Shown here piece after piece: positions 39,784 through 58,322 of a stretch of DNA of 64,000 nucleotides. How positions within the stretch are numbered: the stretch's first letter is position 1; each line of letters starts with the position of its first letter. Source of the stretch: a virus. The notes beneath the pieces were generated by a model. That model was not told the origin of the DNA. It searched no databases and worked only from the letters and a program-made list of their open reading frames with translations. The stretch is from the IMG/VR virus record IMGVR_UViG_3300042876_000027, positions 1 through 64,000 of that record; one strand, written 5' to 3'. Position numbers and translations under genes: made by a program.

Positions 39784-40395
39784 TTAGTCAATGAGGAACC
39801 AGAATCCTGGAGACATATACTTTGTACCACTGATAATTTTAGTAGACTCGTGGACAAATGGCGGTACTGATGGAAATATGACTATGCTTCCTGCTTTTGG
39901 CTTAATCCTAATACCCTGGTTTGGAAAATTAAGTTCTCCGCCCTCATAATTATCGTTTAAGTATAGTACAGAAGATATGTGTTCTATGGTTGGCTCTGGT
40001 GGAGAGTCTGTGTGCGGTCCCATAAAAGCATCTACAAAATACTTGCTAATGCTTATTGGTGCTTGCTTTCCCATTTCAATTCCTAGTGTACTGCAGTAAT
40101 CTTTGGCTGTTATATCTAAGGCTATTTTTATAAGATCATAAACATTTTTTGTAACATCATCAGATTGAGCGTAAGCTTCTGGATTTGTTGTTTTCCTAGC
40201 ACCAAAAATAATATCACTGTTATCACTGGCAGACCATGTGTGCCAAGACGATATTAGTGAGTTATCTGAAAGACTTCCGTCAACAGCCTCGATTGCAGCA
40301 ATAACACTAGACGGTATTTCCAAAACATTTTCATAATAGAATATCTTATCTGCATATACCGTTTTCTTTATAGCATTAGGCAAACTTGTTTCCAT
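39784..40395 (-). CDS. 2OG-Fe(II) dioxygenase-like protein (Lys type)
   Basis: A 203-residue double-stranded beta-helix protein. The metal triad is His128-x-Asp130 in MGPHTDSP and His182 in PFVHEST. The 2-oxoglutarate-binding position is Lys192 (SGTKY), as in prolyl 4-hydroxylases, where most phage relatives have Arg. The core motif is LYLNDNYEGGELNFPNQGI. Last of a seven-gene operon; it overlaps the preceding gene by 20 nt. Substrate unknown; proline or related residues are inferred from the Lys. Confidence 0.85.
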   Translation of the reverse strand: METSLPNAIKKTVYADKIFYYENVLEIPSSVIAAIEAVDGSLSDNSLISSWHTWSASDNSDIIFGARKTTNPEAYAQSDDVTKNVYDLIKIALDITAKDYCSTLGIEMGKQAPISISKYFVDAFMGPHTDSPPEPTIEHISSVLYLNDNYEGGELNFPNQGIRIKPKAGSIVIFPSVPPFVHESTKIISGTKYMSPGFWFLID

Positions 40396-41104
40396 TTAGC
40401 CAGTGCTCCTTTTGCTTAGCCTGCTGTTCTCTTACCCACTTAAACTCTTCTTCCCACTCTAGCTTTCGCTCTTCAGAATATTCTGCATCATCAAAATCCC
40501 AGAAAGAAACCATAGTGTATCTAGTTCCATCTGTAATTTCTTTTACTCCGTGAATATTTTCTACACCACCAGGAAAGACGTAGTATGATAGCCCATTTGG
40601 CTTAAACTCAATATTGTGGTCTGGAAAGTACAACTCTCCTCCACCGTAGTTATCGTTTAAATATAGGATCCCTACATACTTATTAATTTCAAAAGCATTG
40701 GGTTTTCCATGGCTATCGGAGTTGTCTGAATGTGGATTAGCATATCCACCAACATTCCACTTTTGTGCATGTGAAGTGTTTGGCTTTACCCCCCTACCAA
40801 AAATCTCTTCTACGTGAGCCTTAAAAGACTCCTTCAGCTCTTCAAAAAATAGTCCAGGCAAGCCATGGTCAGACAATTTGGGATCATTTGGCAAAAGCCC
40901 CATACCCTCAGATCCATAGAATGCAATGTCTCCCCAGTCACTAGCCTTATCCTCAAAATACGCAATCATTTTATCTGCAGTATCTTTTGTAATAAAGTTT
41001 GGAACTTCTACTATACGATTATCTTTAATTCCAAGGATGCTGTTTTCTATTGGCTCGTCCTTATAAAAAACGAATGAGCTTTTGTCAACTGATTTGATAA
41101 ACAT
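40376..41104 (-). CDS. 2OG-Fe(II) dioxygenase-like protein (Arg type)
   Basis: 242 residues from ATG 41104, which overlaps the upstream stop as TAATG; an upstream in-frame ATG at 41137 would lie inside that gene. Metal ligands are the His and Asp of NPHSDNSD and a distal His in ENIHGVKE. The 2OG anchor is Arg in DGTRYT. The core ILYLNDNYGGGELYFPDHNI is the family signature. The N-terminal 70 residues (FVFYKDEPIENS) are not shared with the paralogs, so they may bind a partner. Confidence 0.87.
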   Translation of the reverse strand: MFIKSVDKSSFVFYKDEPIENSILGIKDNRIVEVPNFITKDTADKMIAYFEDKASDWGDIAFYGSEGMGLLPNDPKLSDHGLPGLFFEELKESFKAHVEEIFGRGVKPNTSHAQKWNVGGYANPHSDNSDSHGKPNAFEINKYVGILYLNDNYGGGELYFPDHNIEFKPNGLSYYVFPGGVENIHGVKEITDGTRYTMVSFWDFDDAEYSEERKLEWEEEFKWVREQQAKQKEHWLNGNKFA

Positions 41105-41772
41105 TATGCCTTCTCTCTGTGTGCCAAAATGGTCCAAAAGAATGGACAGGTATATCTAATTCCAGAGTTTAAAACAGTAACTCCATGAATATAATTTCGG
41201 TCGCCTGGGAAAAAGTAAACTGCTCCCTTTTTGGGCTTAAATTGTATTCCCTGATTTGGAAAGTATAATTCTCCACCCTCATAGTCATCATTTAGATAAA
41301 TAATAGTTGCAAGATCATACCATGGAAAATCATTTGGCTTACCTGCATCGTCACCCTGATGTAGCTCTTTATCTGCATGAGGCATCTGCAATTGACCTGG
41401 CAGCCACTTTACCATTGCTGGAGATGTAGGATTTGCTTCTACATTAAAAAATGACTCAACTTCTGGTTTAAGCCTATCTACTATTTTTCTAATTAATGCT
41501 ACTATTTCTGGGTTTGATTTCATCAATGTTGGAAGCGTTGCCACACGGTCTTTCCAGTAATCGGCATCGTATATTACTGTACCCTCGTCATTGTAGTGAG
41601 TCTCTGTTACGTCCCACTGATCATTATTTCTAATGAAGTTATTAAGTATATCTATTTCTTCTTCGGTCAAGAAAGGCTCAATGCCACCAATCATCTCTGG
41701 TCCTGAACCAAAGAATCCTGATGGCGTGATTGAAACTGGAAGATCGTTATATTGTTTAGTGTTTTCTGTCAT
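41104..41772 (-). CDS. 2OG-Fe(II) dioxygenase-like protein (Arg type)
   Basis: A 222-residue paralog with HAD in MPHADKE, distal His in NYIHGVTV and Arg in SGIRYT. The core is IIYLNDDYEGGELYFPNQGI. It has a private minus-strand promoter: TATAAT at 41784-41779, exactly 6 nt before ATG 41772 with no ribosome site, hence a probable leaderless transcript. It is translationally coupled (TAATG) to the next dioxygenase. Confidence 0.87.
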   Translation of the reverse strand: MTENTKQYNDLPVSITPSGFFGSGPEMIGGIEPFLTEEEIDILNNFIRNNDQWDVTETHYNDEGTVIYDADYWKDRVATLPTLMKSNPEIVALIRKIVDRLKPEVESFFNVEANPTSPAMVKWLPGQLQMPHADKELHQGDDAGKPNDFPWYDLATIIYLNDDYEGGELYFPNQGIQFKPKKGAVYFFPGDRNYIHGVTVLNSGIRYTCPFFWTILAHREKA

Positions 41773-41786
41773 ATATTAATTATACA

Positions 41787-42515
41787 CTATTCGTACTTAC
41801 GACGCTCCCATACATCTCTCTGATATACCCCACCATTTGGTACACGGTATTTTTCAGAATTTTCCATATTCTTTTTACGAAGAGTTTCTTGATCTGTGAC
41901 TAGCTCTACTTCTGAAGTCCAGCTCTCTCTTTTAAATGGGATTATTTGTGCATATGGAGTTCCTGCTGGAAGAATGCCAGTCCATCCTGATGCAACAAAG
42001 AATGGCATTGTTCCTGGCAAGTTTACCTTATCGTTATCAATAATTCCTGCTGTAGTTAAGAACGGAAGCTCAAATCTATTCAGTGGCTGAGTATAGATGG
42101 CACTATACCCTTCTGGCAACTCTACTGCCCAATCTGACCACCAGGCAAAGTGCACTTCTTCATAGCCATGTGGAACTGGAAATTGTGGCATAGGGGATCT
42201 TGGCTGGACAAAATGAACATACTTAGGATCATCAACCTTTACCGAAAGAACGCCAGAATCAGAGATGTAAAACTCAATATCACATGGTGTCTTGTAGACA
42301 TATCCGCTGCCCATAATGTCATAGATTGCTGGGCAGGCTTTCCAAGTAGGAACTTTGCCACCGTCTGGACCAATCCAGTGCTCGCCATCTGGTCTTTGCG
42401 CAAACCTGTCTGCATTTCTATACCAGTCTGGAATAGTCTTTAGAATTGGTGTTGGTCTAGATACGCTATCTTCTGTTAGCCAGGACCTGTTTGAAACAAA
42501 TTTTATAGACTGCAT
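41787..42515 (-). CDS. DUF6065-like protein, longer paralog
   Basis: A 242-residue protein. The C-terminal half shares, in order, an NRFELP-type strand, LPGTMPFF and ILPAGTPYAQIIPFKRE with the 235-residue protein encoded just upstream (MPVPNQF, LPGELPVAW, IPAGTPIAAIIP). Both resemble DUF6065, a family with no assigned reaction. The first 110 residues, with Trp-rich PDWYRNADRF, differ. It starts as TAATG with the preceding gene and lies between dioxygenase genes. Function unknown; a jelly-roll-type fold is possible. Confidence 0.65.
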   Translation of the reverse strand: MQSIKFVSNRSWLTEDSVSRPTPILKTIPDWYRNADRFAQRPDGEHWIGPDGGKVPTWKACPAIYDIMGSGYVYKTPCDIEFYISDSGVLSVKVDDPKYVHFVQPRSPMPQFPVPHGYEEVHFAWWSDWAVELPEGYSAIYTQPLNRFELPFLTTAGIIDNDKVNLPGTMPFFVASGWTGILPAGTPYAQIIPFKRESWTSEVELVTDQETLRKKNMENSEKYRVPNGGVYQRDVWERRKYE

Positions 42516-43222
42516 TACTGCTCCTTAGTAGTTTTTAAAATAATTTTCTTTGCTTCGTGCTTACCAACAGTAGCACCAAGATGATCTTTAGCGTCTCTAT
42601 AGAAGTGGGTCCACTCACCACGAGAATTCATTTCTTGTGCAGCATCTCCACGTGCAGACATATAGCTGTTATAGCTTTCATTATAAATTTCTGATGATGG
42701 TTTAATTACCATCTCAAAAGACTGAATGTCAGTTAGCGATATTGGTATGATTGCAGCAATTGGTGTTCCTGCAGGAATGACAATTTCTTCATTAGCCTTT
42801 GTTACCATCCATGCTACTGGAAGCTCTCCTGGCAAAACAGATGTGCTTGTTAAGGTTGTCATACATTGAGCACCGTCAATAAACTGATTTGGAACAGGCA
42901 TTGTCAATAGTGTTACGTTTTCGTCTGACTTAAACGTTAGTCCAGTACTAAAGCTTACCGTTCTGTTACCACGATATGTATGAACATAACTGTTTCCAGA
43001 AAGTATTTTTATATGGTCAGCAGTTGAATCGTTAATGCCATCCCAAATAAATCTAATATCTTCATTAAATGAAATTCCCCAGCCAAGCCGATTTGCTAAA
43101 GAAATAGGAAAGCAATGATACGCATGTCTATCAAAGGTTATGTCCATCCAGTCACGCTTCATTCCAATTTGATCTAGAACTGCTGCGTTACCGTTATTTT
43201 GGTATACGTTAATGATTGACAT
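42515..43222 (-). CDS. DUF6065-like protein
   Basis: A 235-residue protein. KRDWMDITFDRHAYHCFPIS followed by LANRLGWGI is close to the N-terminal DUF6065 pattern. Later come a strand FSTGLTFKSDENVTLL and the IPAGTPIAAIIP motif. There are several His and Asp residues but no obvious HxD...H triad. TAATG coupled on both sides inside the dioxygenase operon. The biochemical role of this family is not known to me. Confidence 0.7.
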   Translation of the reverse strand: MSIINVYQNNGNAAVLDQIGMKRDWMDITFDRHAYHCFPISLANRLGWGISFNEDIRFIWDGINDSTADHIKILSGNSYVHTYRGNRTVSFSTGLTFKSDENVTLLTMPVPNQFIDGAQCMTTLTSTSVLPGELPVAWMVTKANEEIVIPAGTPIAAIIPISLTDIQSFEMVIKPSSEIYNESYNSYMSARGDAAQEMNSRGEWTHFYRDAKDHLGATVGKHEAKKIILKTTKEQ

Positions 43223-43917
43223 TAGTCACCAGTTTCTTGGTAGAAGCCTTCTCTGTGGTACTTTGCTGAGTAGTCAAGCATAGTAACAATTGAGTATTTG
43301 GTTCCTGAGTGTACTGGCATTGCTCTGTGAGGATACATAAAGTTAGATGGGAAAAGGTATAGATCTCCTGCCTTTGGCTTGATGTTTAGGTTTTGTAGTC
43401 TAAAGAAAAGCTCTCCACCCTCATAATCGTCGTTTGGATATGATACTGCTGATAGGACACAGTTGTACGAGTAGCCATTGTCGTGGTGCTCCTGGAAGTG
43501 CTGACCTGGACCGTACTTAATAAAGTTCATAGCTTCCCAATAACGAAGCTCTCCGATGTTGTATGTCCGACAGTAGTGCTTTACTGCTTGAAGCTGTCTA
43601 AAATAAACTTCATCCCACAACTGCTGTAGTTTTAGGGATGCCTCTGACCTGTCATCAGCAATGTCTGTCTTTTTAAACTTAAAGTCTTGGCAGTCACGGT
43701 ATTCTGGCATCCTCATGCCATATCCGACTTTTGCTTCGCTGTAAGAAAATCTATTATTTGGATCATTTAAGACATCTTCTAGTCTTGATATAATCTCCAT
43801 ACTTTTTGGAAGAACATCACGGTATACAAGAATACCGTTTCCAAAATCTTCTACAGAAGACCATGTTTGCTCTTCAATCTGATAATACTTTTGAATTCGT
43901 TCGTGAATGTTTTCCAT
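43222..43917 (-). CDS. 2OG-Fe(II) dioxygenase-like protein (Lys type)
   Basis: A 231-residue protein with a ribosome site (AAGGAAT) before ATG 43917. Metal ligands are H-x-D of QEHHDNG and the distal His of MYPHRAMP; the 2OG anchor is Lys in SGTKYS. The core is SYPNDDYEGGELFFRLQNL. Helical N-terminal region with charged residues. The Lys and the HxD...H order match prolyl 4-hydroxylase-like proteins. It and the next gene (43927-44658) are each other's closest relatives here. Confidence 0.87.
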   Translation of the reverse strand: MENIHERIQKYYQIEEQTWSSVEDFGNGILVYRDVLPKSMEIISRLEDVLNDPNNRFSYSEAKVGYGMRMPEYRDCQDFKFKKTDIADDRSEASLKLQQLWDEVYFRQLQAVKHYCRTYNIGELRYWEAMNFIKYGPGQHFQEHHDNGYSYNCVLSAVSYPNDDYEGGELFFRLQNLNIKPKAGDLYLFPSNFMYPHRAMPVHSGTKYSIVTMLDYSAKYHREGFYQETGD

Positions 43918-43926
43918 TATTATTCC

Positions 43927-44658
43927 TTAATATGATAGTTCGTTGTCTGATTCTCTGTAGTTATAGTTTCTAAGGTTACCCCTTGAATTATAGTCTGTCA
44001 TAACTACGATTGCATACTTTGTACCAGAGATCATGTCCTGTGAGGCATGTTCGTACACGTATGTTGATGGGAAGACTATTACATCGCCAGCCTGTGGCTT
44101 AATAGTCAGGTTAAAGCGTGGAAAGTAAATTTCTCCGCCCTCGTAGTCGTCATTTATATATGCAACAACAGATACAGTAGTCACATATGCTGGACCATGG
44201 TCAGCATGAATCTTAAAGTGTGTTCCTGGTCCGTCGTACTTGACAAAATTAAATGCTTCAAAATACTGTATACCTACACCCCATGATGCTGAGTAGTGAT
44301 TAGTGCAACTACGAATTTTCTGAAATGAATCTTCGTGGATATCGTAAAGTGCCTTATTCTGATCATTAACTGGTCCAAGAGATCCTCTGCGAATCTTAAA
44401 ATCTAGACAATTTCTTGCTGACTTTACAACATCATCAGATTCTGTGACCATTGCGCCAGACCACTTATACTGAGTTTGACCATTAAGCGTATTTTCTAGC
44501 ACGGAAATATAGCGTTCACCATCTTGCTTTGGAATAGCATTCCTATAAATATTTATTCCAAGTGCAGGATTAATTACAGTAATGCCATTGCCAAGATTAA
44601 GATCTGGCTTTCTATTTGTATCTGTTTCACTTCTATCTAATTCAAACCAACTTGTCAT
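43927..44658 (-). CDS. 2OG-Fe(II) dioxygenase-like protein (Lys type)
   Basis: A 243-residue paralog with HAD in KIHADHG, distal His in VYEHASQ, and Lys in SGTKYA. The core is AYINDDYEGGEIYFPRFNL. A leaderless promoter is visible: minus-strand TATAAT at 44670-44665, 6 nt before ATG 44658, with no Shine-Dalgarno. It begins the seven-gene operon and follows the Pro/Phe-rich adhesin gene, which has its own ATG at 45448. Confidence 0.87.
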   Translation of the reverse strand: MTSWFELDRSETDTNRKPDLNLGNGITVINPALGINIYRNAIPKQDGERYISVLENTLNGQTQYKWSGAMVTESDDVVKSARNCLDFKIRRGSLGPVNDQNKALYDIHEDSFQKIRSCTNHYSASWGVGIQYFEAFNFVKYDGPGTHFKIHADHGPAYVTTVSVVAYINDDYEGGEIYFPRFNLTIKPQAGDVIVFPSTYVYEHASQDMISGTKYAIVVMTDYNSRGNLRNYNYRESDNELSY

Positions 44659-44680
44659 GCATTAATTATAACATAACCAA

Positions 44681-45448
44681 TTAGCATGGGCAACCTTTAG
44701 TACATTCTGGGCAGAATGAGGGTGGGAAGAATGGGAAAAACGGTGGGAAGAATGGGAAAAACGGTGGGAAGAATGGTGGGAAGAATGGAAAGAATGGCGG
44801 AAAGAACGGACCAAAGCTTGGGAAGAATGGGAAGAATGGTGGGAAGAATGGAGCCTGAGTTGTTACGCTATTAGAGTTTGCAGAGTATACACCAGCACCA
44901 TTGGCATTCTCAGCACGGACCTGGTATGTTTGAGCTGTGTTAGCTTCCTGTGTTACAACAACTGAAGTTGATGTTGTTGTTCCAGTTTTGCCATCAGAAG
45001 ATGTCCATCTGTAAAGGCTGATAGCCTTTCCTCCATTGTTAGGAATATTCCAAGATACAGTATCCTGATTTACTCCTGCCGTAGCAGTTGGTGCAGATAT
45101 AGTTGCTGGAACTGTTGTTGCTGTTACTGAAGCAGAAGGTGAAGACGCTGCTGAGGTACCAAACGCATTTGTTGCAGTAACTGTAAAAGTATAAGATGTA
45201 TTGCTGGACAAACCTCCAACAACAATTGGCGATGTAGATCCAGTTGCAGTGTGTCCTGCAGAAGACGTTACAGTAAATGATGTGGCTGCACCAGATCCAG
45301 CTGGCAAAGAAAATGCTACAGATATAGCACCATCATTAAAGGCACGGTTAGTTCCTACATCTGTACCAACTACGTTAATTGGTGCCAATGGTGGAATAAA
45401 GTCATTTTGTGCTAGTGACTTCTTACCTGCTCTTTTATTCTGTGCCAT
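44681..45448 (-). CDS. Fibronectin III protein with Pro/Phe-rich C-terminus
   Basis: A 255-residue virion-like protein. It begins with a basic stretch (AQNKRAGKKS), then two fibronectin type III domains at about residues 17-110 and 112-200 (GGLSSNTSYTFTVTATNAFG; VSWNIPNNGGKAISLYRW). It ends in about 50 residues of alternating PPFFPFFP blocks and a Cys-rich PECTKGCPC. Such a tail is rare and would be sticky or membrane-seeking, and prolines here are plausible hydroxylase substrates. ATG 45448 has a weak AAGG site. It is next to the Lys-type dioxygenase gene. Confidence 0.8.
   Translation of the reverse strand: MAQNKRAGKKSLAQNDFIPPLAPINVVGTDVGTNRAFNDGAISVAFSLPAGSGAATSFTVTSSAGHTATGSTSPIVVGGLSSNTSYTFTVTATNAFGTSAASSPSASVTATTVPATISAPTATAGVNQDTVSWNIPNNGGKAISLYRWTSSDGKTGTTTSTSVVVTQEANTAQTYQVRAENANGAGVYSANSNSVTTQAPFFPPFFPFFPSFGPFFPPFFPFFPPFFPPFFPFFPPFFPFFPPSFCPECTKGCPC
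44724..44860. repeat. Short imperfect tandem repeat coding Pro-Phe blocks
   Basis: Units of about 9 to 18 bases (GGTGGGAAGAATGGG with variants AAAAACGG and AAAGAATGG) recur at least eight times in the 3' end of the preceding fibronectin-type gene. They keep frame and encode the PFFPP blocks. They could change in number by slippage. Confidence 0.75.
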
Positions 45449-45463
45449 TTTCTAAATACCTTC

Positions 45464-47245
45464 CTAAGCTGTAAGGTCTCCATAGACGACCCAAGTGTTT
45501 GCAGCTCTCTTAAATATTGTAGCAGATGACCACTGAGTACGTAGCTTAAGACCTGGTGTTGCATTTACGGTTACTCCGCCAGCACCAGCAATTGTTACTT
45601 GACCAGTACCAGTTTGAAGAATATCTAGAGATGTTCCTACTGGGAAATTCAAAGTAGCATCTGCTGGAATTGTTAGAGTCATAGCTGAAGAAGACCCCAT
45701 CTCGATTAGATCATCTCTCTCTGTCAGCGAAGATAGTGTGTATGACGATGTCTTCTGAATAATTGGAGTAAGGGATGGAACACCCTGTAGGCTTTGTGTT
45801 CCGTCTGGGAATACCACTGCAGCAGCTGTTAGGTTGTTCAGCTGTAGATTATCTAGCGATCCCTGAGCAAAGTTAACTGTGGTAGTTGGCTCGTCAGTTA
45901 CTCCCTTAAACAACTTCCAAACATCGGCGGATGCGTCACGAACAATACCTGTGTGCTGATAGGTTCCATTGTTAAAGTTTCCAACAATACCAATGTCTAC
46001 TAGGTTTGCAGAATTACCTTCACCAATGTAAATAAGTGGGTCAGTAACAATTAGGTCTGTTGCGCTAACTGTAGTTGTTGTTCCAGTTACAGTAAGGTTT
46101 CCATCGACAACTAAGTTTGTCTCTACAGTAACGTCACCAGTAAATGTAGCACCAGTAAGGTTTGCCTTTGCGTTGAGTGCAGTCTGGGTAGCTGTTGATA
46201 TTGGTTTATTTGCATCTGATGTATTTTCTACATTACCAAGACCAACCATGTCTTTTGTAATACCAGAAACTGTTCCAGTAAATGTTGGGCTATTGATTGG
46301 TGCCTTTGAATTTATTTGTGTCTGAATTGCAGACGTTACACCACTAAGATATGATATTTCTGTTCCAGAAACATATCCAATAGTCGTTGTTGATGGCAAT
46401 AAGACATCTCCAGTAAGTTCTGCATCATTAATTGGTGCATAAGTTGTTGCAGCTGTTGCAGATGCAAGCTTTGCATCTAACTGAGTCTGAATGCTTCCAG
46501 TAACACCGTTTAGGGTTAGAATTTCAGCAGCTGAAACATCTCCAATATTTGTAGTTGTTGGTAGAACTACGTTACCAGAGAATGTTGGACTAGCCACATC
46601 TGCCTTAGATGTTTCGTGGGTAGTTACTGTGTTGTATGCATATGTAGCGTCTGATACTACGTCATTAATTTGTGACTGAATTGGTCCAGTAACACCAGAA
46701 AGGTATGACAACTCTGTAGATGTTACGTTTCCCTGAAATGTTTCAAAATCACTTCTGAGATCGTCAATGTCTCCATTTATAATTAACACTGTTGCATCTA
46801 AAATAGTTTGCAAAGAAGCCATTGTTGCCACTGGGGAAAGCTGTGCCCAGGTGAGGTCTCCCATACCAATTTTAATTTGGTCATTTGTAGAGTTGTAAGC
46901 AACTGTGCCTACAGGAATTGCTGTTGAGTATGAAGACCATTCTGAATCAGTTTTTGTCAGAACTCCTGCCTTTGTAGCTAGCGAGTTTGTAACCGTTGTA
47001 GCAAAGTTTTCGTCATCGCCAAGTGCAGCTGCTAGCTCATTTAGAGTATCTAGTGCTCCAGGTGCACCTGCGACAATGGCATCTAGGTTGGTGAAGTATG
47101 GCAAAGCAGTCCAAGAACTTGAACCATCACCAATCTTAAACTTGCTGGTGTCTGTCTCAAATCCAATTTCTCCAGCTGCAAGCACTGGGTTAGCAGTAGT
47201 CCACTGGGAGGCTGTTCCTCTTCGTTGCTGCATTCTTGTTGCCAT
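45464..47245 (-). CDS. Long tail fibre protein
   Basis: A 593-residue fibre. The N-terminus MATRMQQRRGTASQW and AAGEIGFETDTSKFKIGDG form the well-known small beta-domain that attaches many fibres. A shaft follows with recurring S(Y/L)LSGVTxxIQxQI and TFSGNVxLPTTTxIG units. The C-terminal 75 residues, ending TWVVYGDLTA, also occur in the 216-residue protein at 53849-54499. A strong AGGAG site lies before ATG 47245. Confidence 0.87.
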   Translation of the reverse strand: MATRMQQRRGTASQWTTANPVLAAGEIGFETDTSKFKIGDGSSSWTALPYFTNLDAIVAGAPGALDTLNELAAALGDDENFATTVTNSLATKAGVLTKTDSEWSSYSTAIPVGTVAYNSTNDQIKIGMGDLTWAQLSPVATMASLQTILDATVLIINGDIDDLRSDFETFQGNVTSTELSYLSGVTGPIQSQINDVVSDATYAYNTVTTHETSKADVASPTFSGNVVLPTTTNIGDVSAAEILTLNGVTGSIQTQLDAKLASATAATTYAPINDAELTGDVLLPSTTTIGYVSGTEISYLSGVTSAIQTQINSKAPINSPTFTGTVSGITKDMVGLGNVENTSDANKPISTATQTALNAKANLTGATFTGDVTVETNLVVDGNLTVTGTTTTVSATDLIVTDPLIYIGEGNSANLVDIGIVGNFNNGTYQHTGIVRDASADVWKLFKGVTDEPTTTVNFAQGSLDNLQLNNLTAAAVVFPDGTQSLQGVPSLTPIIQKTSSYTLSSLTERDDLIEMGSSSAMTLTIPADATLNFPVGTSLDILQTGTGQVTIAGAGGVTVNATPGLKLRTQWSSATIFKRAANTWVVYGDLTA

Positions 47246-47302
47246 AGTTAAATTCTCCTAATGGGGTTTACCCACACTTCTATACTAATTATAACATAAT
47301 TA

Positions 47303-50726: not shown

Positions 50727-50742
50727 TTCCGTTAAGGAGGAA

Positions 50743-50814: not shown

Positions 50815-50876
50815 AAATAATGTCGCCAGGAGCCAGTGACAGTGGCTAGTAACTACATGAAAAATAAGGAGGTAGC

Positions 50877-51446
50877 ATGTTTAAAAAATTTGCTGCAATC
50901 GGTCTTTCGACCATTTTTATTACTGGTTGTGTTTCGCCAGCAGAATCTCAAGTTCTGAAAGTAAACACAGCAATTGCTATGAGCTATACAAAGACAACCC
51001 CACTATTAGTTCATATTGCTCAAACAGAAAAAATCTCAATGCACAATATGACCATTACCGCTAATAGAGAAAAGGTAAGTCTAGCAATTAAATCACTTAA
51101 AAAATATGTTGGAAAAACTTGGTATGTTTTTTCTGGCAATACCCCATCTGGTTGGGACTGCTCAGGACTAACCATGTGGTTTTATTCACAACTAGGTTTT
51201 GACCTAGAACATAGAGCATCTAAGCAAGAAAGTGCTGGAGAGCTAGTCATTGATGCAATGCCTGGTGACCTTGTTGTATTTAAATACAAGGGGTATAAGT
51301 CAGCATACCATGTTGGTATATATATTGGAAATGGAAAGATGATCCATGCACCTAGAAAAGGTGAGGTCACAAGAATTGAAGATGTTAGCCAATTTGGTGG
51401 AAACTACTCAAATATTTATTACTATAGAATGATTCAGTTATCCTGA
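50877..51446 (+). CDS. NlpC/P60-type peptidase, lipoprotein signal
   Basis: A 189-residue protein. The N-terminus has a basic start, hydrophobic core and a lipobox ending at Cys18 (IFITGC). The catalytic domain has Cys95 in WDCSGL, His145 in AYHVGIY and His157 in MIHAPR, the Cys-His-His triad of peptidoglycan-cleaving NlpC/P60 enzymes. Secretion followed by lipid anchoring fits an outward-facing cell-wall enzyme. The ATG has AAGGAGG. The 3' end overlaps the convergent dioxygenase gene by 13 bases. It is the only plus-strand gene in the late region. Confidence 0.85.
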   Translation: MFKKFAAIGLSTIFITGCVSPAESQVLKVNTAIAMSYTKTTPLLVHIAQTEKISMHNMTITANREKVSLAIKSLKKYVGKTWYVFSGNTPSGWDCSGLTMWFYSQLGFDLEHRASKQESAGELVIDAMPGDLVVFKYKGYKSAYHVGIYIGNGKMIHAPRKGEVTRIEDVSQFGGNYSNIYYYRMIQLS

Positions 51447-51979
51447 TCTTTTTTCTTCAAAAATATTTGAACAGTTACTCGTAATTTATCTGACGTTACA
51501 GGCGTAGTCCCATGCTCTAACCCAAAAGCATTAACAATGCCAAGGTTAAAGTGTGGGATTACGCACACCCAGTCTTCATCATTTGGTTCTCTCCAAGTAA
51601 AAAATCCACCATCATTAAATCCCCATTCTTCATTTAGATACACCGTAACAGCTTTGCTATACTTTGCATCACTGTGATATGGAATATATGATCCTGGCAT
51701 CCATACATAAATCATTGCACTTCTAGTCTCAGTTATTAGCTTGTCTGTTTCAGTATTTAGTATTCCACGACTAATTAGCGTATCTTCTATTTCTTTAAGG
51801 TATCTATCTGGTATAGATATGCAAAATACTGAAGAGTTTTTGCCAATTATGCTATCTGACCAAGCATAGTTTGTCCATGTTTTTACTGGCTCCTGATATT
51901 GACCAGAAATTATATTTTGAGCAAACTCATAAAGCTCTTTGGCAAGAGAAACTCTTAGTGTGTTATTATATTTAATCAT
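51434..51979 (-). CDS. 2OG-Fe(II) dioxygenase-like protein (Arg type, divergent)
   Basis: A 181-residue protein. Ligands are HSD in PYHSDAKY, a distal His in LEHGTTP, and an Arg in KLRVTVQ. The NDD-YEGGEL core is replaced by YLNEEWGFNDGGFFTW, so this is the least similar paralog. It overlaps the stop of the neighbouring dioxygenase gene by 4 bases (ATGA). It may have a different substrate from the others. Confidence 0.8.
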   Translation of the reverse strand: MIKYNNTLRVSLAKELYEFAQNIISGQYQEPVKTWTNYAWSDSIIGKNSSVFCISIPDRYLKEIEDTLISRGILNTETDKLITETRSAMIYVWMPGSYIPYHSDAKYSKAVTVYLNEEWGFNDGGFFTWREPNDEDWVCVIPHFNLGIVNAFGLEHGTTPVTSDKLRVTVQIFLKKKDQDN

Positions 51980-52557
51980 TTAATCCATCCTACTATTGCG
52001 TATCTGATGCCAGACTCTACTGGCAATACAGAGTGATTGTATGTGTACCCTGATGGGAATACTAAAAGCTCATTTGCTGATGGCTTGTGCGCTATATTAA
52101 ATCTTGGAAACTTTATTTCGCCACCGATGTAATCGTCATTCATATAGTATACCATTGAGATTCTTCTATGGTATTTTGGATGATCATCTATATGATTAAC
52201 AAATTTTTGATCCTTTCCGTACTTAAGAATGCTGTAGTCCTCTGGGTCAGAGTAGAAGACACCGTATTCAGCCATATAATCCTCTACAGGGGCTTTTACG
52301 ATAGAGTTAATGATATCTAGCATATTCTTATAGAAAACGTCTCTAGGGGTCTCTGAGAGCCTTTTAGGCAATTTTGCTGGAATTACAATTGTGTCTGTAT
52401 CTCTTGTATCTTTATTTTTACCATCTGATACGCTTGCTTCTAGCCATGATATTGCATCATACTCTACAGCCTCTTCTATCATTTTAGGTAGCTCTGCGTA
52501 TTCTGCATATACGTCTGAGTATGATACGATTCCTGGTGCTAGCTCTTTCTTGACCAT
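51976..52557 (-). CDS. 2OG-Fe(II) dioxygenase-like protein (Arg type)
   Basis: A 193-residue protein. It has HID in NHIDDHPK, distal His in YNHSVLP and Arg in SGIRYA. The core is YYMNDDYIGGEIKFPRFNI. Along its whole length it is close to the plus-strand protein at 57723-58322 (shared start ELAPGI, then DTHI/DTIV, HIDDHP, GVRYS/GIRYA). It follows the zinc-ribbon gene by one base, as does that copy. Confidence 0.87.
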   Translation of the reverse strand: MVKKELAPGIVSYSDVYAEYAELPKMIEEAVEYDAISWLEASVSDGKNKDTRDTDTIVIPAKLPKRLSETPRDVFYKNMLDIINSIVKAPVEDYMAEYGVFYSDPEDYSILKYGKDQKFVNHIDDHPKYHRRISMVYYMNDDYIGGEIKFPRFNIAHKPSANELLVFPSGYTYNHSVLPVESGIRYAIVGWIK

Positions 52558-52558
52558 T

Positions 52559-52801: not shown

Positions 52802-52805
52802 TTAT

Positions 52806-53015
52806 CTACTCCGATGGTGGTATAAAGTTTGTGCCATCAAATGTCCAACCCCACTCAATTCCATCAATGCTTGACGCATCGACTGCAATTGGATTCGACG
52901 ACATGCCTGCTACAATTCTAGCAATATTTGGATTAGATTCTAGATTTGAAACATCAAAGGTAAACACTGCAAATACCTCTGAGTCTACGATCATTGCAAA
53001 TTTCTTTTCAGCCAT
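52806..53015 (-). CDS. Small virion-region protein
   Basis: A 69-residue protein with AGGAGA before ATG 53015. MAEKKFAMIVDSEVFAVF is a beta-hairpin-like start, and the end (GWTFDGTNFIPPSE) is typical of small fibre-associated proteins. No catalytic residues. Located between the PASTA-type adhesin and the zinc-ribbon gene. Confidence 0.55.
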   Translation of the reverse strand: MAEKKFAMIVDSEVFAVFTFDVSNLESNPNIARIVAGMSSNPIAVDASSIDGIEWGWTFDGTNFIPPSE

Positions 53016-53050
53016 AATATCTCCTTTTATAAAATTATAGCACAGTCAGA

Positions 53051-53845
53051 CTAGAATGCACATCCAGTGTACTGGCAGCTAGAATTACACAAAGAGATAC
53101 CGCCATTGCCATCACACGATGCATTGAAACAGTTACAAGGCGCAGGTGCAGGAGCTGGTGCAGGTGCAGGAGCTGGTGCAGGAGCTGGTGCAGGAGCTGG
53201 TGCAGGAGCTGGTGCAGGAGCTGGTGCAGGAGCTGGAGATGAGGGGCATGTGTAGATTCCGCTAGATGGGTTTGGGTAACCACTTGTAGAACATGCAACA
53301 CCAGCAATACCATTAGTACAGTATGACTCATTAGATGTTGTAGTATAAGTAAATGTATCTCCAGTATTTTCCATGTATCTACAGTACCAAGTTGTTGCAC
53401 ATGCTGGTGGAGCAGATGGGTTAGGGACTCCAGGTGTAGTTTGGCAAACAGTTCTGTAGTCGTCACAAACTACTCCACTAACATCTGTTGAGCTAGTAAA
53501 TTCTGATGAAACAACGCCATTTTCATCGGCTGTCTTACAGTAGTAAGTTGTTGTTGGGGTAGGAGTCGGTGTAGGAGTTGGAGTAGGGGTTGGAGTAGGA
53601 ACCCAGTAATAAACAACAATATCAATAGTTGTACCTGGATCGACTACAGTGCCTGCTGCAATGCTTTGTGTTGCAACAGTATTATTGTTTTCAACTGTTG
53701 CTCCAGAAGTTGTTGTGTTTACAGACCCTACCGTGAGTCCTGCTGCTGTAATTGCTGATTGTGCCTGTGAGCTGCCAAGACCAGTAAGCAGTGGAACTAC
53801 TGCACTACCCCTTGTCGCTGCGTAAAACCCAAGTACACCCAGCAT
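53051..53845 (-). CDS. PASTA-domain protein with Pro-rich linkers
   Basis: A 264-residue protein. One PASTA-like domain lies at about residues 15-80 (QAQSAITAAGLTVGSV, then VVDPGTTIDIVVYY), followed by repeated TP, a Cys-rich segment, a long PAPA repeat and a final Cys-rich tail (CNCFNASCDGNG, CNSSCQYTGC). PASTA domains bind cell-wall muropeptides in bacteria, so this may help adhesion. Its prolines and proximity to dioxygenases make it a candidate hydroxylation target. The TAA/ATG boundaries are tight with the next fibre. Confidence 0.75.
   Translation of the reverse strand: MLGVLGFYAATRGSAVVPLLTGLGSSQAQSAITAAGLTVGSVNTTTSGATVENNNTVATQSIAAGTVVDPGTTIDIVVYYWVPTPTPTPTPTPTPTPTTTYYCKTADENGVVSSEFTSSTDVSGVVCDDYRTVCQTTPGVPNPSAPPACATTWYCRYMENTGDTFTYTTTSNESYCTNGIAGVACSTSGYPNPSSGIYTCPSSPAPAPAPAPAPAPAPAPAPAPAPAPAPAPAPAPCNCFNASCDGNGGISLCNSSCQYTGCAF
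53139..53236. repeat. Tandem 12-bp repeat (GGTGCAGGAGCT)
   Basis: About eight direct copies of a 12-base unit encode the PAPA linker of the minus-strand PASTA protein. Each copy adds four residues, so length changes keep the frame. The shadow frame on the plus strand reads as GAGAGA and is not a gene. Confidence 0.85.
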
Positions 53846-53848
53846 CGC

Positions 53849-54499
53849 TTATGCCTTTAGGTCACCTATGAGAAGCCACTCGTTGTTTGCAATCTTTGTC
53901 AGCATAACACCGCTGTAAGTTGCTCCAATTTTAAGCTGATTATTCTTTGAACGAATTGTGACGTTTGATCCTGCCACAAAAGTGACATCACCAGTGTTTG
54001 CTCTAACGACTTCGATCCTAGCACCAACTGGAAGCTCATTTGAATTATTAGAATCTTCAACAATTGTGATAGTAATGTTCGACAATGTGTTTACAACGAC
54101 AAGCTTATCGATTTCAAACTTTGAAAGAGTAAAGCTAGCATTTGAGTTTGCAATTGTTGGGGCATTGATATTTTTCCATCCACCAGCAACATATGCTTGC
54201 AACTGGTTTAGTGGTTCTCCAAGTGATGTTTGACGAACAAAACAGATTGTGCCTTCTGCTGGAGATGGGATAGCTGTATCCCTATCTGTAGTAGTTTGAA
54301 AGTTGTTAAAACCGTCTTCAAGGATTACTGTATTTTTAAAAGTAGATGCACTCACAAAATTAGTGGTGTTGTTAAATTGATGCGTTCCAGTCCAGCTGTA
54401 ATTGGCTACCGTGCTAGCATTACCAGCAATTGGGTGCCAAGTTTGCGTATTTGAGTCATAGATATAGCCAACCTTGCCAACTGTTGATACTGTAGCCAT
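53849..54499 (-). CDS. Tail fibre with shared C-terminal head
   Basis: A 216-residue protein. The N-terminal part (MATVSTVGKVGYIYDSNTQTW) is fibre-like; the middle has HQFNNTTNFVSASTFKNTV. The C-terminal 75 residues (ITITIVEDSNNSNELPVG, VTFVAGSNVTIRS, ending WLLIGDLKA) match the head of the 593-residue fibre. It shares base 54499 with the upstream gene. It is probably a short or accessory fibre with the same receptor domain. Confidence 0.78.
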   Translation of the reverse strand: MATVSTVGKVGYIYDSNTQTWHPIAGNASTVANYSWTGTHQFNNTTNFVSASTFKNTVILEDGFNNFQTTTDRDTAIPSPAEGTICFVRQTSLGEPLNQLQAYVAGGWKNINAPTIANSNASFTLSKFEIDKLVVVNTLSNITITIVEDSNNSNELPVGARIEVVRANTGDVTFVAGSNVTIRSKNNQLKIGATYSGVMLTKIANNEWLLIGDLKA

Positions 54500-54948
54500 T
54501 ATGCACCAATCTCTTTCCAGGTAGCTAGTCCTGCGTCATAAACATACATCTTTAGTGGAGATGAATTCTTGTCTACCCAAAGAAGTCCATCGACTAGACC
54601 AGTTGTTGGTGCATCATTTTGATATGCAGCTACTGTGCCCACTATGGCACTTACGGAGCTATTGGAGTCTACCCAAATAAAATTATCTACTGGCGTTGCT
54701 GGAAGATCTCCTGTTGGACCATAGAAAGATCCAACTCCTGCAGCCTCTACAACTGCAACCCTATCATCTAGTGCTTCTAAGTGACCAGCTACCGAGTTAG
54801 CAACGATACCACCAGTACCACCAATTTGCTTTACGGTTGGCACAGTTGTGCTTCCATAGTGATATAGCTTTAAGGCAGCCTGAATGTCAGCTGCTTCCGT
54901 ATAATCAGGAATCTGAGTTGAGTAGATGTTTCCAATAGAACTAGACAA
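54499..54948 (-). CDS. Short fibre protein
   Basis: A 149-residue protein starting with TTG at 54948, with GGTGA six bases upstream. It has a helical segment GNIYSTQIPDYTEAADIQAA, a QIGGTGGIVANSVAGHLEAL linker and a C-terminal beta unit (GLLWVDKNSSPLKMYVYD). Similar DNFIWVDSNS units appear twice, suggesting an internal duplication. Likely a tail-fibre or chaperone component. Confidence 0.6.
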   Translation of the reverse strand: MSSSIGNIYSTQIPDYTEAADIQAALKLYHYGSTTVPTVKQIGGTGGIVANSVAGHLEALDDRVAVVEAAGVGSFYGPTGDLPATPVDNFIWVDSNSSVSAIVGTVAAYQNDAPTTGLVDGLLWVDKNSSPLKMYVYDAGLATWKEIGA

Positions 54949-54966
54949 TTAATATCACCAATGAAA

Positions 54967-55548
54967 TTATACCACAGTAATAGACAGATGGCAGATAGTT
55001 TCTCCAGTCATTGCTGCCCATGTAGTTCCAGTCAGTGAGGATGCGTAAATTGTCAGTGGTAGCGACAAAACATTATTTGATTTTGATACAGATCCAATTG
55101 AAACAGATGCTGCTACTGGCTTTCCAACATTGACTAGCTGCATTTGAATATTAAAATCTGTTGCAGTTGGGGTAGATGGAAGACTTGGCAGATACACGCT
55201 TGCATCAGCAACTGATACTGTTGTAGTTGCCACACCGTTTGTAAATGTTAATGCTTTATTCTGTGCAAACACATTTGGAATAAGCTTTAGGATTGGCTCC
55301 CAAGTATTTGACGATGGTCCAGCAATAAACTGGTACATGTATAGATATTCTGAATCTGATGTATTTGCATTGATGAACATGTCTCCAACAACTGGGTCTG
55401 TCAGAAACTCATAGTCGTTTGGGTTCTGATCTCCAACGATAAAAGTGCTACCCCTGTCACCTTGTGGACCAAAGTCTACTGATAGGTCAATAACTGCTGG
55501 ACCACCGATAACTGTTAGATCATCATTTGACAAGACGACTTCTGTCAT
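54967..55548 (-). CDS. Fibre-cluster beta-rich protein
   Basis: A 193-residue protein with an N-terminal GPQGDRGSTFIVGDQ, a collagen-like remnant that often sits near fibre knobs. The middle (SDSEYLYMYQFIAGPSSNTW) and the rest are strand-rich and end in LSITVV. It follows a BppU-like gene (shared base 55548). Virion component by context. Confidence 0.6.
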   Translation of the reverse strand: MTEVVLSNDDLTVIGGPAVIDLSVDFGPQGDRGSTFIVGDQNPNDYEFLTDPVVGDMFINANTSDSEYLYMYQFIAGPSSNTWEPILKLIPNVFAQNKALTFTNGVATTTVSVADASVYLPSLPSTPTATDFNIQMQLVNVGKPVAASVSIGSVSKSNNVLSLPLTIYASSLTGTTWAAMTGETICHLSITVV

Positions 55549-55892
55549 TATACAGCTCCAACAACATCTGCGGTTACATCAACATTTCCAGTTAGCAGGG
55601 TATAGACAGTTCCATCGCTAGATCTGGTTACCTGAACATCGTATACATATGTTGTCCCTGCTGTTAGCTGTCTTCCAACTCCTGCTGGAATCTTGCAAGC
55701 AACTGTTCCATTAGAAATAGTGGCAAAGCACTCATACTGGGTTGCACCAGCACCTCTGGCGGTAGCAATCTTAAAAGCAACAGCAAAGTCTGTTAGTGAA
55801 AATGCAGACCCATCTGAATTTTTAGGGTAGATGTTAAACTCGTAGGTATCACCCTCATAGTAGCTAATATTATACGTTGCTGGAAAAGCCAT
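55548..55892 (-). CDS. BppU-like N-terminal domain protein
   Basis: A 114-residue protein. YYEGDTYEFNIYP and then LTDFAVAFKIATARG match the pattern of the genes at 49770-50126 and 56453-56839. Followed by a fibre protein, as those are. It shares base 55548 with its downstream neighbour. Confidence 0.65.
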   Translation of the reverse strand: MAFPATYNISYYEGDTYEFNIYPKNSDGSAFSLTDFAVAFKIATARGAGATQYECFATISNGTVACKIPAGVGRQLTAGTTYVYDVQVTRSSDGTVYTLLTGNVDVTADVVGAV

Positions 55893-56452
55893 TAGTTTAC
55901 CTCCGTAATATAGGTTCCGTTTATATAAATCTTGCTTGCTGTAGTTAGTGTAACTGGTGCATTTTGCTTAAAGATAGCTTCCATGATTGGGCTATTTGCT
56001 CCACCAGACTGCTTTAGATAGTGAAGATCTAAAGTCTGAGATCCAGCCAAATGATCTGCATTTAGAATAAAGTGTCCAGCTAAGTCAGGATTTTGAGTTG
56101 GGTCAAGATTTACCCATCCAGCAAAATGGTTCATAGCTCCTGAAAGAGCAGGGAATGGGAGTTGAAGATTATATTGACCAGTTCCAAAGTTTGTTACTGT
56201 GTTTAGGTCTACTGCAATCCAAAAGCTAACCATTTGACCATTTTTAACATAGTATGAGTTATATGTTGGATAGCTTGTTCCAGATCCAGTAAATGTAAGA
56301 CCTGTAGCCGAAAATACTGGAGACCATCTTACTGCAGAAGGAAACTCTGCATCTGCCCCTGCTGGACCCTGTGCGCCTTGCTCTCCCTGTGGTCCCTGCG
56401 GACCAGTAGGACCAGGTGCTCCTGGAAACGGTACAATTTTGATAACTGACAT
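55892..56452 (-). CDS. Tail fibre with collagen-like repeat
   Basis: A 186-residue protein. Residues about 9-33 are Gly-X-Y repeats (GAPGPTGPQGPQGEQGAQGP), which form a triple helix; the rest is a beta-rich knob (MVSFWIAVDLNTVTNFGTG). In collagens the Y-position prolines are the target of prolyl hydroxylases, which here are encoded nearby. It shares base 55892 with the BppU-like gene and sits beside another. Confidence 0.75.
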   Translation of the reverse strand: MSVIKIVPFPGAPGPTGPQGPQGEQGAQGPAGADAEFPSAVRWSPVFSATGLTFTGSGTSYPTYNSYYVKNGQMVSFWIAVDLNTVTNFGTGQYNLQLPFPALSGAMNHFAGWVNLDPTQNPDLAGHFILNADHLAGSQTLDLHYLKQSGGANSPIMEAIFKQNAPVTLTTASKIYINGTYITEVN

Positions 56453-56839
56453 TTATAAACTTCCTCCTGTGACATCTCCAAGTACAGAAATAGTTCCTAG
56501 GAGAGGTGTCCAAACTTTTTCACCATTAATAGTTACTTCAAGGTCAAAGACTAGTTCTGCTACGATAGAAGAACTTCCTTCTCCCCAATTTCTTGTTACA
56601 TCAGATGATGCAATAATGTCTACATACCCATCAGAAACAACTACTTCAAGATCATCAAGAATCTCTCCTCTAGAATCATAAGCAGAGGAAGAAAACTCCC
56701 AATCAGAGATATCTAGAAATGTTACTTCATCATTTTCTAAAAATTCTACACGAAGCTCAGAAGTATCTCCTCTTACAACATTCCATTTTACTGTTGCAGG
56801 CTTACTTCCTAGTTCTTGTATAGAATTACATTGAGTCAT
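56453..56839 (-). CDS. BppU-like N-terminal domain protein
   Basis: A 128-residue paralog (VKWNVVRGDTSELRVEF, then ISDWEFSSSAYD). A minus-strand TATAAT at 56854-56849 lies 9 bases before ATG 56839. It begins a run of four to five fibre genes and directly follows a strong terminator hairpin, so it seems to need its own promoter. Confidence 0.65.
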   Translation of the reverse strand: MTQCNSIQELGSKPATVKWNVVRGDTSELRVEFLENDEVTFLDISDWEFSSSAYDSRGEILDDLEVVVSDGYVDIIASSDVTRNWGEGSSSIVAELVFDLEVTINGEKVWTPLLGTISVLGDVTGGSL

Positions 56840-56870
56840 AGTACTTAAATTATATCATTAAAAATAAAAA

Positions 56871-56917
56871 ACTAGTGCTCAGGGCGGTGGGTATGAGAGA
56901 CAACCCTGAACACTAGT
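56871..56917 (-). terminator. Large terminator hairpin before the fibre genes
   Basis: ACTAGTGCTCAGGG (56871-56884) pairs with CCCTGAACACTAGT (56904-56917) with one mismatch. On the minus strand the second arm is followed by a T-rich run (TTTTTTATTTTT). It stops leftward transcripts from the holin-like gene just before the fibre operon. Confidence 0.85.
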
Positions 56918-57123
56918 AACATAAGTATATCATAAATAACAAAACGATAACTTCGTTGATTTTAAAGGGGTTGCTAAATTGTTATCAAAATCGTTATAAA
57001 ACTTTTATCAAAAAATGACTTGACAAGAACGATTTGTGTGTTAGCATAATATATATTAATTAATAAATAAATAATAGCTAGTTAGATATATTATATATAT
57101 TTATATATATTATATATAAGATA
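56918..57123. promoter_or_regulatory. AT-rich non-coding region with repeated motifs
   Basis: No gene is visible. It holds several related words (CGATAAC, GTTATCA, CGTTATA, TTATCAA) in both orientations at 56943-57010, a plus-strand TTGACA at 57020-57025 with CATAAT at 57045-57050, and a run of nearly pure A/T (57040-57118). This could be an operator set or a replication origin, or a weakly structured spacer. The function is open. Confidence 0.45.
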
Positions 57124-57363
57124 TTACTTTTTAGCTAGATACTCTATAAATTTATCGTAGAGGTCATCAATCTTTGATTCTAGCTTGTCAGTCTTGTCTT
57201 CGAGTCTTGTTACTTGATCTTTCATGCTTTGTCCGCTATTTGGCTTTAGTTCGTGCTTGATTTCATCAAAATAGTGTTTGACAAGCCACCGAACGCCCAT
57301 TGACGCTGATGCAATTATTGTTGATACTCCGACTATGATGCCGACCCAAGATTCTATTGACAT
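57124..57363 (-). CDS. Small membrane protein, holin-like
   Basis: A 79-residue protein with one N-terminal hydrophobic segment at about residues 5-28 (WVGIIVGVSTIIASASMGV), then a coiled-coil-like tail (VTRLEDKTDKLESKIDDLY). This shape occurs in many actinophage membrane proteins called holins or DUF2746-like. A minus-strand TATAAT lies at 57378-57373, 9 bases before ATG 57363. A lysis role is likely but not shown. Confidence 0.6.
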   Translation of the reverse strand: MSIESWVGIIVGVSTIIASASMGVRWLVKHYFDEIKHELKPNSGQSMKDQVTRLEDKTDKLESKIDDLYDKFIEYLAKK

Positions 57364-57519
57364 ATATCTTTAATTATATAACATTTTTAAACTCGGCGGT
57401 AAAGTTCTCGGCTAAAATAGAGGTTTTATCACGGCGGTAAAATAGAGGACCCATCCACACTTCTGCACTAAAAGTGCAATATGTGGACATATTCTCTGTT
57501 TTCGTGATATCATTAATAC
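57364..57519. promoter_or_regulatory. Divergent control region between leftward and rightward genes
   Basis: The plus-strand promoter is TGGACA at 57484-57489 and TATCAT at 57508-57513, 18 apart. Its -35 overlaps the right arm of a hairpin: TGCACT/AGTGCA at 57464-57478 plus outer CCACA/TGTGG. Two direct copies of CGGCGGTAAA (57394, 57432) and of AAAATAGAGG (57414, 57439) lie upstream. The leftward promoter is TATAAT at 57378-57373. Repressor or activator sites here would switch both directions. Confidence 0.6.
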
Positions 57520-57720
57520 ATGGGAGACGACGTAAAGTTTTTAGATCTATTTGATCCAAACCAGCCTAGGTCCGATAAGGAGATTATCGATGACAGGCTG
57601 AAGATATGCAATGAATGTCCTTGGCTAAACAAGGCATTGCAGAAATGTCGTAAGTGTGGGTGCTTTATGCATTTAAAAACTACTCTCCTAAACGCAAAGT
57701 GTCCAATTGGAAAGTGGTAG
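57520..57720 (+). CDS. Zinc-ribbon protein, early copy
   Basis: A 66-residue protein. The C-terminal part (CNECPWL, CRKCGCFM, then CPIGKW) repeats the Cys scheme of the minus-strand gene at 52559-52801, while the N-terminus (DDVKFLDLFDPNQP) differs. The ATG is 6 bases after the -10 with no Shine-Dalgarno, so translation is probably leaderless. It is followed after 2 bases by a dioxygenase gene. Confidence 0.8.
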   Translation: MGDDVKFLDLFDPNQPRSDKEIIDDRLKICNECPWLNKALQKCRKCGCFMHLKTTLLNAKCPIGKW

Positions 57721-57722
57721 GT

Positions 57723-58322
57723 ATGAAAAAAGAAGAACTGGCTCCAGGAATCCTCCTGGTACGTGATGTAATCCCAGGATATGAACAGCTAATCCCTTAC
57801 ATTGAAATGTCCGTGCAAATGGGGCAGGTAGACTGGGAAAAGGCAGACGTAAGATCTTATGAAGAAAACGAACGGTCTACAAATGACAGTGTAAGAGATA
57901 CACATATCATTGGTATTCCCCATAACTACATGTACCAAGATCCAAACATCCCAGATCTTTCTTTTGAGGATAGGATGAACTCTATTTTTACGATGTTCTT
58001 TGGTCAACACGAACTTGAGTATGCTAAAGAGTACAAAGCTTTAATGTCAAAACACGAGTCGTATTCTATTTTGAGATATCAAAGAGGTCAGCACTTTGCA
58101 GAACACATCGATGACCACCCAGATCGCATCAGAAGAGTGTCTACCGTCTACTTTATGAATGATACATATTCAGGAGGAGAGTTGGAGTTTCCACGATTTG
58201 ACCTAAAGATCAAACCAGAAGCAAATTCACTATTGCTTTTCCCCTCTAACCACGTATATAATCATATTGTGCATCCTGTAACTGATGGCGTTAGGTATTC
58301 TGTAGCTAGCTTCGTGGGATAA
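57723..58322 (+). CDS. 2OG-Fe(II) dioxygenase-like protein (Arg type), early copy
   Basis: 199 residues from ATG 57723, 2 nt after the upstream stop; a longer in-frame start at 57654 would run inside the zinc-ribbon gene. Ligands are HID in EHIDDHPD and His in YNHIVHP; Arg is in DGVRYS. The core is YFMNDTYSGGELEFPRFDL. It aligns over its length with the late copy at 51976-52557. The only dioxygenase in the rightward block. Confidence 0.87.
   Translation: MKKEELAPGILLVRDVIPGYEQLIPYIEMSVQMGQVDWEKADVRSYEENERSTNDSVRDTHIIGIPHNYMYQDPNIPDLSFEDRMNSIFTMFFGQHELEYAKEYKALMSKHESYSILRYQRGQHFAEHIDDHPDRIRRVSTVYFMNDTYSGGELEFPRFDLKIKPEANSLLLFPSNHVYNHIVHPVTDGVRYSVASFVG

Follow-up and report, generated by a model that had tools for sequence, protein, structure and literature searches.

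Viral prolyl hydroxylases and phages with multiple copies of 2-oxoglutarate (2OG)/Fe(II) oxygenase genes are already known. Aquatic viruses commonly carry both 2OG oxygenases and prolyl 4-hydroxylases (P4Hs) as auxiliary genes, and according to a survey from 2022 the way in which viruses use P4H "remains cryptic" (PMC9301287). Cyanomyoviruses usually carry up to five 2OG genes (PMC3037559), and cyanophage S-SCSM1 has 24 (PMC9602691). Here we describe eight such genes in a viral DNA stretch of 64,000 nucleotides (positions 1 to 64,000 of the IMG/VR record IMGVR_UViG_3300042876_000027, in the following called the window). We refer to the 2OG genes as A, B, C, F, G, H, I and J and to the two genes between C and F as D and E. 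We found that two of the eight, G and F, almost always directly adjoin a gene for an fn3-domain protein with a C-terminal tail consisting almost wholly of Phe and Pro (APFFPPFFPFFPSFGPFFPPFFPFFPP...). The module that links such enzymes to a Phe-Pro tail and to a partner with a dUTPase-like fold is new in that it is undescribed within the literature and collections searched.

Four described systems come closest. The P4H of virus PBCV-1 (vCPH, PDB 5c5t) is likewise viral and has a single-domain P4H fold (profile match 8e-7, Z 14.9 against our structure model of F), but it is an algal-virus enzyme, whereas the window belongs to a bacteriophage in which several paralogs are linked to a protein with Phe-Pro repeats. 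Chlamydomonas P4H-1 (PDB 3gze, bound to (Ser-Pro)5) acts on proline-rich repeats and ranks first among the structural matches of the F model; in contrast to the genes described here it is eukaryotic, and its substrate repeats are Ser-Pro instead of FFP/FFPP. The P4H of Bacillus anthracis (PDB 3itq, 5hv0) is the best PDB sequence match of a profile built from all eight proteins, yet it is a cellular enzyme outside any phage fibre operon. Finally, the cyanophage 2OG-Fe(II) oxygenases of phrog_61 share the PHROG and Pfam domain and also occur as multiple diverged copies per phage, but we found no report of an adjoining Phe-Pro repeat protein or DUF6065 gene for them.

In loci fetched by their portal gene the conserved unit runs from the fn3 protein with its (FFP/FFPP)n tail through G, F, E (a DUF6065 gene), D, C, B and A towards the portal gene and thus contains five 2OG genes. 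Between the fn3 gene and gene A of the window the open reading frames (ORFs) overlap or are separated by gaps of at most about 22 bases, and the distance from A to the next ORF in portal direction is 39 bases. Because these boundaries overlap or nearly abut, the genes from fn3 to A look like one operon. Behind the PP protein the genes nearly always follow in the conserved order PP-protein-G-F-(E-D)-C. Where the block is smallest it retains just G-F, F alone or G alone, which points to G and F as the enzymes of importance for the tail. Relatives without the block have a homologous fn3 protein with another tail (FSPFGFSPFGAFGFSPF), and homologous fn3 proteins with single-Pro tails (FSPFGFSPF) are found without G, F, C and E.

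We assessed the association between tail class and 2OG orthogroups in two sets of loci. Loci of the first set were found by the fn3 domain or the portal, independently of the 2OG genes, and had at least 5 kb of DNA downstream. Their tails were of the PP type (for example PFFPPFFPFFPP), the single-Pro type (for example GFSPFGFSPF) or free of Pro. A same-strand 2OG gene was located within 8 kb in 75 of 76 loci with PP-type tails, 69 of which had three or more. For single-Pro tails one or two 2OG genes were present in 25 of 50 loci and three in none, and the nine Pro-free tails had no 2OG gene at all. The contrast is sharper for single orthogroups: F orthologs accompany 73/76 PP tails and 1/50 single-Pro tails, followed by G (71/76 and 1/50), C (69/76 and 0/50) and E (69/76 and 1/50), while D is less selective (72/76 and 10/50). 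The lone exception, locus L040, which holds the single G ortholog among the single-Pro tails, actually encodes a Phe-Pro tail (TQSPFFPFFPFFPSFGPYFPYFPPFF) that had been misbinned by the classification rule. With L040 counted as PP type, F is present in 74 of 77 PP tails and in none of the 58 others (Fisher 5e-35, uncorrected for relatedness).

Loci of the second set were found by the encoded peptide only (FFPPFFPP or GFSPFGFSPF) and were restricted to fn3-family proteins followed by 2.5 kb or more of downstream DNA. Within these 2.5 kb a 2OG gene was present in 41/42 PP loci in comparison to 2/26 single-Pro loci (Fisher 5e-15), and an F or G ortholog belonged to the locus in 38/42 and 0/26 cases, respectively. 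In the reverse direction, a PP-rich ORF lies just upstream of 34 of the 36 F orthologs for which enough upstream DNA was available.

The preliminary description had assigned the eight ORFs to the 2OG/Fe(II) dioxygenases on the basis of their motifs, and this assignment proved right. All eight ORFs are real and uninterrupted; J is encoded on the plus strand and the other seven on the minus strand. The whole record of 69,767 bases contains exactly the same eight matches to PF13640 (2OG-FeII_Oxy_3) and no further ones. Seven proteins pass the gathering score of this family and match the profile of phrog_61, a known phage 2OG-Fe(II) oxygenase family (E 1e-16 to 2e-28); H stays below the Pfam cut-off (17.8 instead of 27 bits) and has no phrog_61 match in the PHROG profile comparison. 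Chance is no issue because E-values reach 6e-16 and orthologs are found across many contigs. The HxD...H Fe(II) triad and a 2OG-binding Lys or Arg are present in all eight proteins, and the latter follows the distal His at a distance of 10 residues (11 in H); a Lys at the 10-residue spacing is presumably also the 2OG residue of collagen P4H. Among orthologs the triad is invariant and the 2OG-binding position varies only by exchanges between Lys and Arg. This includes H, where H102, D104, H156 and R167 are conserved in four sequences (triad 4/4). A core motif YxNDxYxGGExxFPxxxI had been ascribed to seven of the proteins; its strict form is confined to four (A, B, C and I), F, G and J bear variants (YPNDDYEGGELFFRLQNL, YINDDYEGGEIYFPRFNL, FMNDTYSGGELEFPRFDL), and in the alignment it is absent from H.

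Comparison of the eight-protein profile with all PDB sequences placed the B. anthracis P4H first (2.9e-11), followed by prolyl 3-hydroxylase 1 (P3H1), EGLN1/PHD2, PKHD hydroxylases and the PBCV-1 P4H. Protein I has P4H matches among the PDB sequences as well. F, the only one of the eight that was modelled, gave a structure with pLDDT 86 and pTM 0.85 from 36 orthologs. Its top match is the Chlamydomonas P4H with (Ser-Pro)5 (Z 16.6, 2.8 Å, 175 residues), and further matches are Trichoplax and human HIF PHDs, the P. putida P4H and PBCV-1 vCPH; matches at most one Z unit apart were regarded as tied. The model supports a prolyl-hydroxylase-like fold for F, although a fold does not prove the reaction. 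The best explanation of these data is that the eight genes encode 2OG/Fe(II) oxygenases of the prolyl-hydroxylase-like branch, with presumed activity. The best tblastn matches of F remain below 60% identity, and the fn3 protein and E have no tblastn match among 50,697 deposited phage records. Within the collections searched, members of the module are known only from uncultured viral contigs; a relative of F with 72% identity is otherwise found only in one contig binned into a metagenome-assembled genome.

Taking linkage and fold together, we consider it rather probable that the Phe-Pro tail of the fn3 protein is hydroxylated at its prolines by G and F and, probably, by C. These enzymes would modify this neighboring protein, a putative virion component, during virion assembly, with the prolines of the (FFP/FFPP)n tail as the presumed target. 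An unmodified Phe-Pro polymer would be very hydrophobic and hardly soluble at all. Polar groups introduced by 4-hydroxylation might favour an extended polyproline II rod, and the resulting polyproline-type rod or adhesive strand could be stiffer and more soluble. The other paralogs would probably act on other repeat positions or on other repeat proteins, for example I on a neighboring PASTA protein, and E, which is no oxygenase itself, may be a partner that perhaps serves in assembly or in presenting the substrate.

Several observations weigh against this reading. In a tree of the fn3 domains the tail class switches at least six times, with only four independent well-supported pairs. For the presence of at least three 2OG genes all four pairs were concordant in nearly all random pairings and none was opposite, but significance on the tree is weak because there are too few independent switches (p = 0.125). 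Linked exchange of a cassette could hold the genes together without any enzyme-substrate relation. When FFPPFFPP occurs in proteins outside the fn3 family, a 2OG gene is found within 2.5 kb downstream in only 15 of 29 cases, most of the exceptions having 2OG genes elsewhere in the same record. Two records (G108, 38 kb, and G111, 37 kb), both of which may be fragments, encode FFPPFFPP without any PF13640 gene, and four small FFPPFFPP records also have no 2OG gene. On the enzyme side, AlkB and the lysyl hydroxylase LH3 are also among the matches of the F model (Z 13.8-13.9). PBCV-1 encodes a P4H, and yet an amino-acid analysis from 2000, as far as its citation goes (PMC7019647, ref. 162), found no hydroxyproline in the virions. 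Furthermore, 2OG genes of other orthogroups are present in 44 of 49 single-Pro records. Presence of the family alone is therefore uninformative, and we rejected any 2OG gene as a correlate of the tail as too common; only F, G, C and E are specific.

We considered four other explanations. Hydroxylation of a residue other than proline (Phe, Tyr, Asn or Lys), be it in the same tails or in different fibre proteins, is unlikely but has to be taken seriously, as the same fold includes LH3 and other hydroxylases, Phe is as abundant as Pro in PP-type tails, and in locus L206 two 2OG genes stand beside a Pro-poor INTINT repeat protein. PP-type tails consist of 47% Phe and 40% Pro, single-Pro tails of 34% Phe and 13% Pro. 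Since the latter are also Phe-rich and yet lack F, G and C, the feature that by composition accompanies the enzymes is Pro content, especially PP, rather than Phe. In addition, prolyl hydroxylases head both the structural and the sequence comparisons. Slightly less likely still, in our view, is a hitchhiking fibre cassette whose genes travel with the fn3 gene through adjacency while the enzymes act elsewhere. The mosaic nature of fibre regions and the small number of well-supported switches would fit such a cassette; the order PP-protein-G-F, however, is kept in strongly diverged relatives with invariant active sites, and the minimal cases retain just F and/or G beside the PP tail.

A role in host metabolism has already been proposed for cyanophage 2OG genes (PMC3037559, PMC9602691). 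As auxiliary metabolic genes they would draw down or sense host 2-oxoglutarate and thereby reprogram nitrogen or energy metabolism of the host, and 2OG genes of other families are indeed a common background in the related records. For the genes of the window we regard this as improbable: F, G, C and E belong to an operon of structural genes and go with a single repeat type of a single neighboring protein, and the nearest folds are protein prolyl hydroxylases. A function as DNA or nucleotide oxygenases (AlkB/TET-like) in repair or base modification is very improbable, as the Tet_JBP matches of C (19.9 of 34.9 bits, E 4.6e-4) and A (13.8 bits) fail the cut-off, many prolyl hydroxylases rank above AlkB (Z 13.9) in the F model comparison and the genes lie in a fibre operon, despite the DNA endonuclease V in some PHROG names.

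If the tail prolines are indeed hydroxylated, a broader and more tentative proposal follows, to which we give a lower chance: widespread uncultured phages might build a virion appendage of a near two-letter Phe-(hydroxy)Pro polymer by means of prolyl hydroxylase paralogs and a helper with dUTPase fold. Such an appendage would be the bacterial-virus counterpart of hydroxyproline-rich structural proteins. Phages would then possess a structural material of the hydroxyproline type, and these genes would be read in terms of virion maturation instead of host metabolism. The link between orthogroups and tail names a candidate substrate for viral prolyl hydroxylases that can be tested without a cultured phage.

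Table 1. Features of the window discussed in the text. Triad counts refer to orthologs with a conserved HxD...H.
Feature	Position	Strand	Evidence
A: 2OG-Fe(II) oxygenase	39784..40395	-	PF13640 E 4e-11; triad 26/26 orthologs
B: 2OG-Fe(II) oxygenase	40376..41104	-	PF13640 E 1.3e-6; triad 62/62 orthologs
C: 2OG-Fe(II) oxygenase	41104..41772	-	PF13640 E 1.8e-7; triad 118/118 orthologs
D: phrog_7084 protein, weakly similar to E	41787..42515	-	phrog_7084 E 4.5e-34; also occurs without the 2OG module
E: DUF6065 protein, dUTPase-like fold	42515..43222	-	PF19541 E 1e-28, 100.7 bits (cut-off 26.6)
F: 2OG-Fe(II) oxygenase, prolyl-hydroxylase-like model	43222..43917	-	PF13640 E 7e-15; triad and Lys 123/123 orthologs
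G: 2OG-Fe(II) oxygenase, directly downstream of the fn3 gene	43927..44658	-	PF13640 E 9e-11; triad 111/111 orthologs
fn3 protein with (FFP/FFPP)n C-terminal tail, candidate substrate	44681..45448	-	Pfam fn3 E 4.5e-8; tail class tracks F/G/C/E orthologs
Phe-Pro repeat tail of the fn3 protein, PFFPPFFPFFPSFGPFFPP...	44720..44851	-	translation; tandem repeat 44721-44848
H: divergent 2OG-like protein	51434..51979	-	PF13640 17.8 bits, below cut-off of 27
I: 2OG-Fe(II) oxygenase near Pro-rich PASTA protein	51976..52557	-	PF13640 E 6e-16; triad 22/22 orthologs
PASTA protein, repeats (PT)n and (PA)n, which I may use as substrate	53051..53845	-	PASTA E 9e-10; partial linkage in relatives
J: 2OG-Fe(II) oxygenase	57723..58322	+	PF13640 E 9e-16; triad 5/5 orthologs

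The two partner genes differ in their distribution. The PP-tail specificity of E equals that of G and C, whereas D, for which we found no Pfam match, is encountered elsewhere too. The model of E (pLDDT 86) has a dUTPase-like fold (Foldseek E 2e-4) and resembles the dUTPase folds 3lqw (Z 9.4, 4.1 Å, 125 residues) and 3ecy (Z 9.2, 2.4 Å, 109 residues). This likeness concerns the predicted fold only, and we do not claim that E is a dUTPase.

The number of paralogs in one phage had been considered striking. It is ordinary for this group of uncultured phages: related records contain up to 13 PF13640 genes (5-10 in most records with the module, commonly 5-13), so that together with the 24 copies of S-SCSM1 the copy number is ruled out as the surprise. 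Identity among the paralogs is 15-43% (mean 25%), with I and J at the upper end (43%), while orthologs from related contigs mostly share 55-95% identity. By these values the eight genes are therefore old paralogs maintained by selection and not the product of a recent burst.

A modifying pathway with several substrates, as put forward in the preliminary description, is plausible to the extent that linkage can tell, since the Phe-Pro tail is accompanied by F, G, C and E, and I is often located beside a Pro-rich PASTA protein in relatives. The link between the PASTA protein and I is partial only, as L201, L205 and L208 have PTPTPT repeats without an adjoining 2OG gene; each of the three records contains one PF13640 gene. 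The repeat protein of L206 (L206:6001-7455) is itself a PASTA protein; its long repeats read INTINTINT, a run of Pro is absent, and the two 2OG oxygenase genes follow directly. Modification of virion proteins, also suggested previously, is supported by genomic linkage, sequence profile and fold; for a collagen-like protein the link is not supported. The latter (55892-56452) is short, with about 8 Gly-X-Y, and was rejected as a substrate of J because an ortholog with 61% identity is present in G028, a 64 kb record without a PF13640 gene.

Repeat tails and 2OG-fold proteins show further variation among the relatives. Many fn3 proteins with repeat tails carry a Hint/intein-like domain after the repeat, for instance the single-Pro proteins L034:2706-4040 and L289:10001-11209 (Pfam Intein_splicing E 1.1e-6 and 0.0016, respectively, below cut-off), which suggests a possible self-processing of the tail. 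Other aromatic low-complexity tails on fn3 or PASTA proteins are FYNYSNFYN (L160:7923-9610), GAFGAFGAF (L170:1012-2178) and FSHYGGFSHYGG (L027:358-1284); relatives thus exchange the repeat type of the tail. Near single-Pro tails we noticed 2OG-fold proteins that have lost the HxD (GPQFD, PQLD; L081:4024-4623, L289:12077-12682, L293:12226-12825 and L296:5074-5673) and are possibly pseudoenzymes.

With regard to the remaining genome, the portal protein is 49% identical to a Streptomyces phage portal. UvsX, DnaB, a primase and a DNA polymerase are also encoded, and no tRNA genes were found in the window. A block of fibre and tail genes extends over 44-57 kb and includes a tail fibre (45464-47245) with an Mtd_N domain (E 2.5e-15), which in major tropism determinants forms the N-terminal part. 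Within this fibre region an NlpC/P60 endopeptidase gene (50877-51446, plus strand) is convergent with H and overlaps its end.

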